A stretch of 64,000 nucleotides of DNA from Streptomyces sp. NBC_01750 (lineage in GTDB: Bacteria; Actinomycetota; Actinomycetes; Streptomycetales; Streptomycetaceae), in the NCBI RefSeq assembly GCF_035918095.1, contig NZ_CP109137.1:4404001-4468000 (forward strand). Direction: 5' to 3'. The notes under the pieces were generated by a model. That model saw only the letters and a program-made list of their open reading frames with translations. It did not search any database and was not told where the DNA came from. Positions 52,041 to 54,766 of the stretch are shown one piece after another. Numbering within the stretch: position 1 is the stretch's first letter; each line of letters begins with the position of its first letter. A program made the translations under genes and the position numbers.

Positions 52041-52117
52041 GCAAAGGTGCCACCACGCTAGCGTCATTTCTGGCGTGCTGAACAGTGGGCCCCTTCCGTT
52101 CTTGCGATGATCGGTCG

Positions 52118-53461
52118 GTGACCTCCTCGCAGCAGACGCCCGAAGCACACAGCCATTCGCACAACCATGGGCCCGCCGCACCCGTCTCCAAGCACCTCCG
52201 CAAGGTCATCGCCGCGGTGCTGATTCCTTTCTCCACCGCGGTCGTGGTCGGTCTGTTCGTGCTCTGGCCCGGCGGCGCTCCCGACCATCAGCGCAGCGGT
52301 GTCGGCTTCGACCGGCAGACCGAGCAGGGCAGCGTGGTGGCGGTCGAGAAGGTCAACTGCAAGGACGTGAACGCGGCGCAGGTACCGCCGACCGGCGACA
52401 CCTCCACTCCCGAGGGGCGCGAGGCGGTCAACTCCCAGAAGGGCAGCTGCTCGAAGGCGACGATCAAGGTCACCAGCGGCAAGGACAAGGGCCGTACCTT
52501 CACCGAGATCGTCCAGCCGGACTCTCCACGGCAGTTGAGCAAAGGCCAGGGGGTGGTGGTGGCGTACGCGCCCGACGCGCCCCGCGATCTTCAGTACTCC
52601 GTGACCGATGTGGACCGAAAGCTCCCGATGGCGCTGCTGGCCTTGATCTTCGCGCTCGCTGTGGTGGTGGTGGGACGGATGCGCGGTGTGATGGCGCTGA
52701 TCGCGCTCGCCGCCTCGTTCGCCGTACTGACCCTGTTCATCCTGCCCGCGATCCTGCAGGGCTCGAATCCGCTGGTCGTCGCGGTCATCGGGGCGAGCGC
52801 CATCATGCTGATCGCGCTCTATCTGTGCCACGGCCTCACCGCACGTACGTCGGTCGCGGTCCTCGGCACACTGATCTCGCTGCTGCTGATCGGACTGCTC
52901 GGTTCGCTCTTCATCGGCTGGGCGAGCCTGACCGGCAACACAGACGACAGCACCGGCCTGATCCACGGCCTGTTTCCGAACATCGACCTGAGCGGCCTGC
53001 TGCTGGCCGGCGTCATCATCGGTTCGCTCGGTGTGCTCGACGATGTGACAGTGACCCAGACCTCGGCAGTCTGGGAGCTGCACCAGGCGGATCCGGACAT
53101 GGGGCCGCGCGGGCTCTACCGGGCCGCCATCCGGATCGGCCGGGACCATATCGCGTCGGTCGTGAACACGCTGGTACTCGCCTACGCGGGCGCGGCGTTG
53201 CCGCTGCTGCTGCTCTTCTCGATCGCGCAGAGCAGTGTGGGGACGGTGGCCAACAGCGAGCTGGTGGCGGTGGAGATCGTACGCACCCTGGTCGGGTCGA
53301 TCGGTCTGGTCGCTTCGGTTCCGGTGACCACCGCGCTCGCTGCGATGGTGGTTTCCGCGGACCGGCCGAGATCGCCGGGAGCATCAGAAGCGGTGAGCGC
53401 TCCGCCGGGACCGCCGGTGTCGCCGGTACGGAGCGGGAAGGGCCGCCGCCGCAAGAGGTAG
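52118..53461 (+). CDS. YibE/F family membrane protein
   Basis: A 447-residue protein with about eight helices. A His-rich N terminus (HSHSHNHG near residues 11-18) precedes the first helix, and an extracellular domain (residues 60-160) follows. The YibE/F core is at 170-410, with LLIGLLGSLFIGWASLTG and IIGSLGVLDDVTVTQTSAVWE, the latter typical of the family. The family is linked by homology to transport of a small ion or metal, but without direct proof. The start is GTG 52118. Divergent from thiC. Confidence 0.85.
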   Translation: MTSSQQTPEAHSHSHNHGPAAPVSKHLRKVIAAVLIPFSTAVVVGLFVLWPGGAPDHQRSGVGFDRQTEQGSVVAVEKVNCKDVNAAQVPPTGDTSTPEGREAVNSQKGSCSKATIKVTSGKDKGRTFTEIVQPDSPRQLSKGQGVVVAYAPDAPRDLQYSVTDVDRKLPMALLALIFALAVVVVGRMRGVMALIALAASFAVLTLFILPAILQGSNPLVVAVIGASAIMLIALYLCHGLTARTSVAVLGTLISLLLIGLLGSLFIGWASLTGNTDDSTGLIHGLFPNIDLSGLLLAGVIIGSLGVLDDVTVTQTSAVWELHQADPDMGPRGLYRAAIRIGRDHIASVVNTLVLAYAGAALPLLLLFSIAQSSVGTVANSELVAVEIVRTLVGSIGLVASVPVTTALAAMVVSADRPRSPGASEAVSAPPGPPVSPVRSGKGRRRKR

Positions 53462-53485
53462 CTCAGTGGGCGCTCCGGCCACCGC

Positions 53486-53920
53486 TCAACCGGCGTTCTC
53501 CTCGGCGAGGATGCGCCCGAGGGCCTCTTCCAGGCTGCCCTCGAATTCACCCAGTGTGCGCTCCTGCCCCAGCGGCACCAGTTTGTCGGTGCGGTCGAGG
53601 AAGCCCACGAGCGGCGCCGCGCTCGACCGGAACAGGGCCCGGTCGCAGCCGACCTGGAGCCTGATGCCGACGTCGGCCGGCCCTTCTTGCCCGATCGGCG
53701 CGATGTGTACATCACCGTCGCCACTCGGCCCGTTGATGCCGTCGAGCAGCAGTTCACGGCCGAAGGCCCAGGTCACGGGGGCGTCTCCAGGCAGATGGAA
53801 GGTCATCCGTACCGCGTAGGGGTCCCCTGTCTCGTATCGCAGCTCCACCTGGATCCGGAACGAGAGCTCCTCCGAGACAAGGAAACTCATGAGGACCTCG
53901 GCATGGACCGACTGACGCAT
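53486..53920 (-). CDS. ssgA: SsgA, sporulation-specific cell division activator
   Basis: A 144-residue SsgA-like protein, with the pattern MSFLVSEELSFRIQVELRYE, DPYAVRMTFHLPGD, TWAFGRELLLDG and FLDRTDKLVPLG. The closeness to SsgA itself (RILAEENAG end) is greater than to other SALPs. SsgA activates SsgB and FtsZ ring placement for sporulation septa. The remnants of an IclR-type regulator, probably ssgR, lie just upstream; SsgR activates ssgA in S. coelicolor (established). Expression may therefore differ in this strain. Confidence 0.93.
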   Translation of the reverse strand: MRQSVHAEVLMSFLVSEELSFRIQVELRYETGDPYAVRMTFHLPGDAPVTWAFGRELLLDGINGPSGDGDVHIAPIGQEGPADVGIRLQVGCDRALFRSSAAPLVGFLDRTDKLVPLGQERTLGEFEGSLEEALGRILAEENAG

Positions 53921-54025
53921 CGTGTACCCCGCAGTGGCTGAAGCAGTGAAGGAAACCTGCTGAAAACGGCCAGGATTGGTACCCCATGGCCCTCTTGACG
54001 TAATGGTGCTGTAAGCGCGGGAAGA

Positions 54026-54376
54026 TCACAAGGAGTGATTTTTCAGATACTGATAGAGAAGGTTAGCGAACCGGCAAGCCGCTGCCATTCCGCTGCGTAT
54101 CCGTACGACCGCAGGCAGTAATCGCTCGTTCTGGCGAAGGGGGAGGGAAATAGCCATCGCGACGGCACTGGATCCGGCCGTGATCGGGATGGCGGCACTG
54201 ACCGTGCCGACCGCATATTCCCGTCGCTCCACGACAGGCTGCATTCGCTCCATCGAGGCGAGCGGCTCCGTCAACCGATTCGGCGGACAGGACGGGCGTC
54301 AGAGTGCGCAGCGGGCGGTACGTGGTGGGGAGAGGAAACCCCGCCTCGCGCGCGAGCGGATTCGCGGGGGCCCAGG
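54026..54376 (-). pseudogene. ssgR: IclR-family regulator remnant (probably ssgR) with internal deletion
   Basis: On the minus strand, one frame (54376 down) reads ANPLAREAGFPLPTTYRPLRTLT, the helix-turn-helix pattern of IclR proteins. From 54274 another frame reads MERMQPVVERREYAVGTV, SAAIPITAGSSAVAMAISLPL and IRSGMAAACRFANLL, the end of an IclR effector domain. The middle 130 or so residues of an ordinary 240-residue protein are missing and the two parts are in different frames. In S. coelicolor ssgR precedes ssgA in this place and orientation. The gene is therefore broken here. Confidence 0.72.
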
Positions 54377-54426
54377 CGTTTCCCCGGCCGGGCCGGCCCC
54401 TGTACAGCCGGGGGCTGCCAGTCGCT

Positions 54427-54645
54427 CTACCAGTCGCTCTTCGAACTCGAAGACGCCATGAACTTCCGTACGACAAAGATGAGCCCGCCGACGAGGGCGA
54501 CGAAGACCAGAACCTTGAAGAGCAGCGCGATCACAAAGCCGACGAGGCTGGCGATCAGCCCACCGAACACGACAAGGGCGATGACAGGCACCGCAACCCA
54601 CTTCACCCACCACGGCATCCCCGCGAACATCTCTCGCACAGCCAT
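54427..54645 (-). CDS. DUF5326 family membrane protein
   Basis: A 72-residue protein: MAVREMFAGMPWWVKWVAVP, then two hydrophobic segments (about 15-36 and 38-60) and a basic end. The family is found in Streptomyces and relatives, with no known function. ATG 54645 has GAGGTAAGG upstream. It is co-oriented with a cupin gene upstream. Confidence 0.85.
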   Translation of the reverse strand: MAVREMFAGMPWWVKWVAVPVIALVVFGGLIASLVGFVIALLFKVLVFVALVGGLIFVVRKFMASSSSKSDW

Positions 54646-54766
54646 CGTCCTTACCTCGTTTCTCTGAGTTCCTGGCTTCGATGCTAGGCGGGAGAAGGGG
54701 TCAACGGGGGCCCGCGAGCCCTTGGACTCCCCTGACCGAACCCTTAGGGAGCGGGCAGGGTCGGGC

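Follow-up and report, generated by a model that had tools for sequence, protein, structure and literature searches.

SsgA positions sporulation division. The closest described counterparts of the locus analysed here are the ssgRA pair of S. coelicolor (SCO3925-3926) and the ssfR-ssgA pair of S. griseus, in which we take ssfR to be the counterpart of ssgR; both are gene pairs of the same kind, with the same motif upstream of ssgA. For S. coelicolor it is stated that SsgR activates ssgA (PMC4457907; PMC4125116), just as the original prediction for this locus had assumed, and SsgR is placed in models between AtrA or BldM and ssgA, with AtrA (PMC4457907) and BldM (PMC4125116) acting through ssgR. 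The SsgR motif of S. coelicolor, TGAAAACTCACTCCT, is given in PMC8222616 after Traag 2004 and the authors' own analysis. Inputs to ssgA which are independent of SsgR do exist: in S. venezuelae, BldC is reported to bind this gene and to switch it on (PMC6428758), and in S. griseus it is reportedly under the control of AdpA (Yamazaki 2003, cited in PMC4457907). According to Girard et al. 2013 (PMC3814722), some Kitasatospora are without ssgA and/or ssgR, and S. cattleya is without ssgA. Wang et al. 2023 (PMC10090380) followed development genes, including that of SsgR, over 388 genomes and described varying loss for nearly a third of them.

An intact ssgA beside a decayed ssgR

The locus lies in a stretch of 64,000 nt, here called the window, to which all positions refer; coordinates preceded by C1 are those of the whole genome. 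Its features are the following.

52085..53461, plus strand: convergent membrane protein gene (ORF), presumably YibE/F-like, used as second tree marker
53486..53920, minus strand: ssgA, intact, 144 aa (ORF; PF04686 at 105 bits; codon-position pattern of purifying selection)
53963..53972, minus strand: TGGCCGTTTT, candidate AdpA-like site, 9/10 to the consensus TGGCSNGWWY (consensus match)
54023..54049, minus strand: conserved 27-nt element TATCTGAAAAATCACTCCTTGTGATCT, overlapping the site of the ssgR stop codon (conservation over the inspected loci)
54031..54045, minus strand: SsgR motif as published, TGAAAACTCACTCCT in S. coelicolor, 14/15 in the window (PMC8222616, Table 1)
54086..54274, minus strand: C-terminal remnant of ssgR, SsgR residues 179-241 (68% identity)
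54294..54374, minus strand: helix-turn-helix (HTH) remnant of ssgR, residues 30-56, in another frame (70% identity)
54427..54645, minus strand: small membrane protein gene, presumably DUF5326-like, located ahead of ssgR in relatives and used as marker of the syntenic position (synteny)

The ssgA gene is a full ORF of 144 codons whose product contains the SsgA domain PF04686 (105.2 bits against a Pfam cut-off of 25), so that the predicted integrity of this gene was borne out; of the NCBIfam models only the one for SsgD matched, with 73.6 bits and thus under its cut-off of 185. It is 81-88% identical to the 80 best named loci among the matches listed, other SALPs of the same genome reach at most 43% identity to it, and it occupies the same locus as ssgA of relatives. 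Compared with the relative L044, ssgA differs at 8 first, 11 second and 61 third codon positions (144 sites each). The corresponding differences to L133 (50, 53, 62) were left out, as L133 is one codon shorter and the comparison therefore out of register. ssgA is thus under purifying selection, and ssgR, as set out below, is drifting.

For ssgR, the whole genome was searched with the intact SsgR of a relative (P0001 from genome G004). SsgR residues 179-241 match positions 54086-54274 (E 3.9e-20) and residues 30-56 match positions 54294-54374 (E 3.7e-4; both whole-genome E-values), in two different frames of the same strand upstream of ssgA. In comparison to the intact relative L003, approximately 280 nt are missing between the small membrane protein gene and the HTH piece and approximately 350 nt between the HTH and C-terminal pieces. 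The collapse that had been predicted, with HTH and C-terminal parts left in different frames and the middle gone, was therefore found, and no single frame at the ssgR position contains an intact HTH_IclR together with IclR_C, the combination taken to mark a functional SsgR. In Pfam, all matches of the pieces were below cut-off (DUF4244, E 0.0043, followed by IclR_C, E 0.015, for the C-terminal piece; HTH_IclR, E 0.052, for the HTH piece), and the assignment of both pieces to ssgR is by homology and synteny. The C-terminal piece shares up to 77% identity over 52 residues with SsgR, 52% over 40 with the IclR-type protein P1 and 28% over 58 with P2; for the HTH piece the values are 74% over 23 residues for SsgR and 68% over 22 for P2. 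Being nearer to SsgR than to P1 or P2 and located at the ssgR position, the fragments are, judged by these similarities, an ssgR pseudogene and not what is left of a different IclR gene. An SsgR orthologue elsewhere in the 3-contig genome was looked for and not found; the best matches are two paralogues with 41% and 42% identity. A search of solved structures yielded five matches, all of them other IclR-family regulators, and Rfam gave no match in 53400-54700.

The remnant differs from L044 at 78 of 248 nt (31%), with 22, 18 and 38 differences at codon positions 1, 2 and 3 (83, 83 and 82 sites compared). As six intact pairs with 41-48 changes at the third position have only 9-13 changes at position 2, against 18 in the remnant, the latter is no longer under constraint. 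In sum, ssgR lost its promoter and N-terminus as well as its middle and drifted, and the element that holds the motif was kept.

Recurrence of ssgR loss in Streptomyces

The original prediction had presented this situation as a peculiarity of one strain, which did not hold: 43 of 392 sampled genomes, the one of the window included, contain ssgA and no full-length ssgR adjacent to it. The sample was evenly drawn from Streptomyces. P0001 finds matches in all 392 genomes, and the best E-values form two groups, with 72 genomes (window included) exhibiting no match better than 1e-70. In the 71 others of these and in four borderline genomes ssgA was searched at E ≤1e-30; it was present in 44 of the 75 and absent at this threshold in 31. 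As these lack a close SsgR as well, their sporulation division may take place without SsgA. The DNA upstream of the 44 ssgA genes was without a full-length ssgR frame in 42 cases and contained an intact one in two (G047 and G170). The roughly 321 genomes with strong SsgR scores were counted as intact by score, so that a lesion in frame, such as the one of L133, could escape, and about 17 of these score-classed genomes have E-values between 1e-89 and 1e-98.

The comparisons below use 141 inspected loci, 97 with intact ssgR, most of which come from near relatives of the window, plus 44 without full-length ssgR (43 genomes and the named locus L114), which are more diverse. Duplicates of other loci (L132, L134, L007, L022, L024, L002 and L003) were removed before counting, as was L025, whose ssgA-like gene is not a genuine ssgA (40% identity); L163 and L164, having two domains in one open frame, were manually assigned to the intact group. 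Some of the 44 assignments are doubtful: L114 and L139 exhibit a frameshift only, L136 several frameshifts in a genome that is 55% complete, L141 has its five-prime part cut by a contig edge with the C-terminal part also missing, and in L167 the C-terminus alone is unmatched.

Of the best 80 named loci among the matches listed, 77 contain an intact ssgR, the three exceptions being S. pacificus CWH03 (L069), Streptomyces sp. MnatMP-M17 (L095) and Streptomyces sp. PKU-EA00015 (L114, one frameshift). Over the loci without full-length ssgR the damage extends from frameshifts to complete lack of the gene. In L133 (G301) and L173 (G023) the HTH was deleted in frame and the effector part is open, which makes HTH-less SsgR proteins possible there; in L137 (G356) and L138 (G403) an in-frame deletion lies within the effector domain and spares the HTH and the last codons. 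On a tree of SsgA and the convergent YibE/F-like protein (all 141 loci, 44 of them without full-length ssgR) at least 14 changes between the intact and the lost state are needed, 11 of which are forced by starred branches. This tree was made by a quick method under a simple model, has several long branches and eight loci without the second protein, and is not a species tree; furthermore, parsimony on it is blind to the direction of change, gain or loss. As an SsgR orthologue is reported from Kitasatospora setae (PMC3814722), presence of ssgR is probably ancestral. The sister of the window is G301 (L133; SH-aLRT 95), whose ssgR was damaged by a different lesion, the in-frame deletion through the HTH. 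The two lesions could either be two losses or go back to a single early inactivation, after which each lineage underwent its own deletion.

In 42 of the 44 loci, among them loci from which ssgR vanished, ssgA is 138-151 codons long. In L166 (G336) the ssgA match reaches only to residue 117, with an open frame beyond and no stop codon at the usual place, so that damage may there have affected ssgA in addition to ssgR. In L136 (G391) ssgA is open to codon 162. With about one in ten sampled Streptomyces keeping ssgA without a full-length SsgR gene, the SsgR step would be dispensable in nature.

The conserved element at the ssgR stop codon

The SsgR motif is located inside the 27-nt element; the window deviates from the motif at one position, with a variant that is common in intact relatives, and matches the element at 27/27 positions. 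At ≥22/27 the element was found in all 97 intact loci and in 31 of the 44 others (27 of 40 without the doubtful L114, L136, L139 and L141); in a shuffled control the best of 149 upstream regions reached 17/27. Together with the 9 nt upstream of it (36 nt), the element does not differ at all between window and L044, against 10 differences in the following 60 nt, and over seven relatives in all the same 36 nt differ at 0-2 sites. The 30-nt flank upstream of the element is 56% identical to the intact consensus in the 31 loci that kept the element, compared to 74% in intact loci. L135, likewise without full-length ssgR, has the element at 27/27, and it is present at 22-25/27 even in loci without an ssgR frame by the SsgR profile (L144, L148, L150, L152, L154, L160, L162 and L175, the last with a faint tblastn trace of ssgR). 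As the core 21-mer occurs only once in the 8.98 Mb genome at up to three mismatches, the element is no general promoter word. A consensus scan of 53850-54450 for a sigma-70-type promoter found none.

The element is gone in the remaining 13 of the 44 loci, namely L146, L170, L172, L174 and nine loci of one large-genome clade; as all 13 kept ssgA, it is not indispensable for the retention of this gene. In the clade (9-12 Mb; L147, L149, L151, L155-L159 and L161) ssgA and P2 were kept and full-length ssgR and the element are gone, and control of ssgA must be different again there.

The two halves of the element vary differently. Variation per site in the five-prime half, where a large part of the SsgR motif is located, is 12.1% in the 31 loci versus 2.8% in intact ones, so that the site may be in partial decay; in the three-prime half, towards ssgA, it is 3.2% versus 1.4%. 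Such a contrast would fit a promoter or the site of a second factor overlapping the SsgR site. This is only a hint, as the loci without ssgR are more diverse and the contrast nearly vanishes among distinct sequences (five-prime 12.9% versus 10.7%, three-prime 4.3% versus 6.1%).

An element serving SsgR alone would be expected to decay after the loss of SsgR, and it is gone in 13 loci but kept in 31. The original prediction had either ssgA necessarily controlled otherwise in this strain or the strain sporulating differently; survival of the motif and of the element around it after the loss supports the former, in the form of a probable other control. We consider it somewhat better than even (probability roughly 0.6) that a decayed ssgR stands here beside a working ssgA which is transcribed without SsgR through the kept element. 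The SsgR site is, from its pattern of conservation, probably read by something else now. In mechanistic terms, the element would also serve a promoter or another DNA-binding protein, SsgR would be a dispensable booster on top, and its loss would remove one input, that of AtrA and BldM in the models, with ssgA transcription staying. That this transcription would need the element is suggested by its being kept in 31 loci, even in those without any ssgR frame. A more far-reaching version, slightly less likely true than false in our estimate, is that the SsgR motif is mainly a specialised promoter or the site of some other factor present throughout the genus, with the last ssgR codons selected as control DNA of ssgA and SsgR itself being optional and repeatedly dropped.

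Candidate readers and alternative explanations

Candidates for the reader, in no order, are RNA polymerase itself, AdpA, BldC and a related IclR protein. A word similar to the AdpA consensus TGGCSNGWWY (PMC4021200) is located 50 nt past the element towards ssgA; it is a candidate site by consensus only. A best match of ≥9/10 to this consensus was found in 99 of 141 loci (71/97 intact, 28/44 other) versus 17 of 141 shuffled ones. A block (A/T)TCC(T/C)GGCC in the interval between element and ssgA, overlapping the AdpA-like word, is similar over the loci. In the C1:3284426 region the genome encodes a protein judged by eye to be AdpA-like, its gene containing one TTA codon. Gbn (SCO1839), whose reported site is ahead of ssgR at -483 (PMC9239103), was rejected as reader, as was P1 (C1:3325064): its recognition helix differs from that of SsgR, and no protein like P1 was listed for G235 at E ≤1e-40 (query P2), yet the element of G235 is 25/27.

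A takeover of the kept site by the IclR paralogue P2 (C1:4684453-4685199), which would then have replaced SsgR, would be in line with the likeness of the two proteins. P2 shares 40 of 63 residues of the HTH region with SsgR without gaps and its recognition helix (LPLATAYHLLRTLVHDGYL) is nearly that of SsgR (LPLPTTYHLLRTLTHEGYL), although the effector part is less alike; both the genome of the window and, at 90%, that of the sister G301 encode it. P2 is patchily distributed: at E ≤1e-75 it was found in 65 of 153 genomes that either contain ssgA or match SsgR strongly, and in none of seven others. As a general replacement it was rejected, because it is not enriched where ssgR was lost (found at E ≤1e-75 in 16 of 43 genomes without full-length ssgR, versus 49 of 110 genomes matching SsgR strongly); moreover, the element is kept in genomes without P2, for example G018, G235, G306 and G375, the nine large-genome loci combine P2 with absence of the element, and in none of 22 regions upstream of P2 does a box match exceed the best of the region's own 50 shuffles. 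Taken together, we regard the takeover as unlikely. The region upstream of P2 exhibits a different conserved block, CCTTGCC...GGGCGCA. A similarly low probability is given to the idea that ssgA is itself on its way out, silenced by the loss of ssgR too recently for the gene and its promoter to have decayed. Loss of ssgA does happen, as the 31 of 75 searched genomes without it illustrate, the gene is possibly damaged in L166 and runs on in L136, and Girard et al. 2013 (PMC3814722) suggest that it is perhaps becoming obsolete in Kitasatospora. Nevertheless, the differences of ssgA from L044 are concentrated at third positions in a way that those of the remnant, counted against the same relative at 82-83 sites per position, are not, and frames of normal length persist in nearly all loci without ssgR, even where nothing of it is left.

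Much less probable still is a change instead of a loss of function, with the kept C-terminal ORF (54026-54274), or HTH-less SsgR in relatives, still acting. The effector parts left open after deletion of the HTH in G301 and G023 would be in line with such proteins, but the C-terminal piece of the window is changed at all codon positions, leaves the SsgR frame before the element and is without any DNA-binding part. An assembly artefact hiding an intact ssgR is, judged from the assembly, the least credible explanation. Errors of this type could explain a few of the relatives, those whose ssgR is frameshifted or cut at a contig edge (L114, L136, L139, L141); for the window an error is unlikely, as two large deletions and the strong divergence of the remnant occur in a genome of three contigs and 100% completeness, and as ssgR of the sister is damaged differently. 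This leaves transcription of ssgA without SsgR, through the kept element, as the preferred reading, with the element as a short, single-copy bait for other activators of ssgA. If the more far-reaching version is true, the damaged lineages are natural ssgR mutants for finding the other factor.

Comparison with described ssgA systems

Unlike in S. coelicolor ssgRA, ssgR of the window is a remnant and the motif was kept without its protein; by analogy with the models for that species, the inputs of AtrA and BldM would be cut off in this strain. Control by AdpA as in S. griseus is likewise an input that is independent of SsgR, and the candidate site and the AdpA-like protein present here would be compatible with it, although this site is distinct from the conserved element. 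In the open-licence literature, searched by titles and abstract openings, no account of ssgR loss with ssgA kept in Streptomyces was found. Kitasatospora and S. cattleya resemble the present case in showing that members of the family may be without ssgR. Beyond what the accessible part of Girard et al. 2013 describes for them, the present analysis adds the remnants, the recurrence within Streptomyces with ssgA kept and the survival of the motif, the new point being a control site that outlives the gene of its activator.
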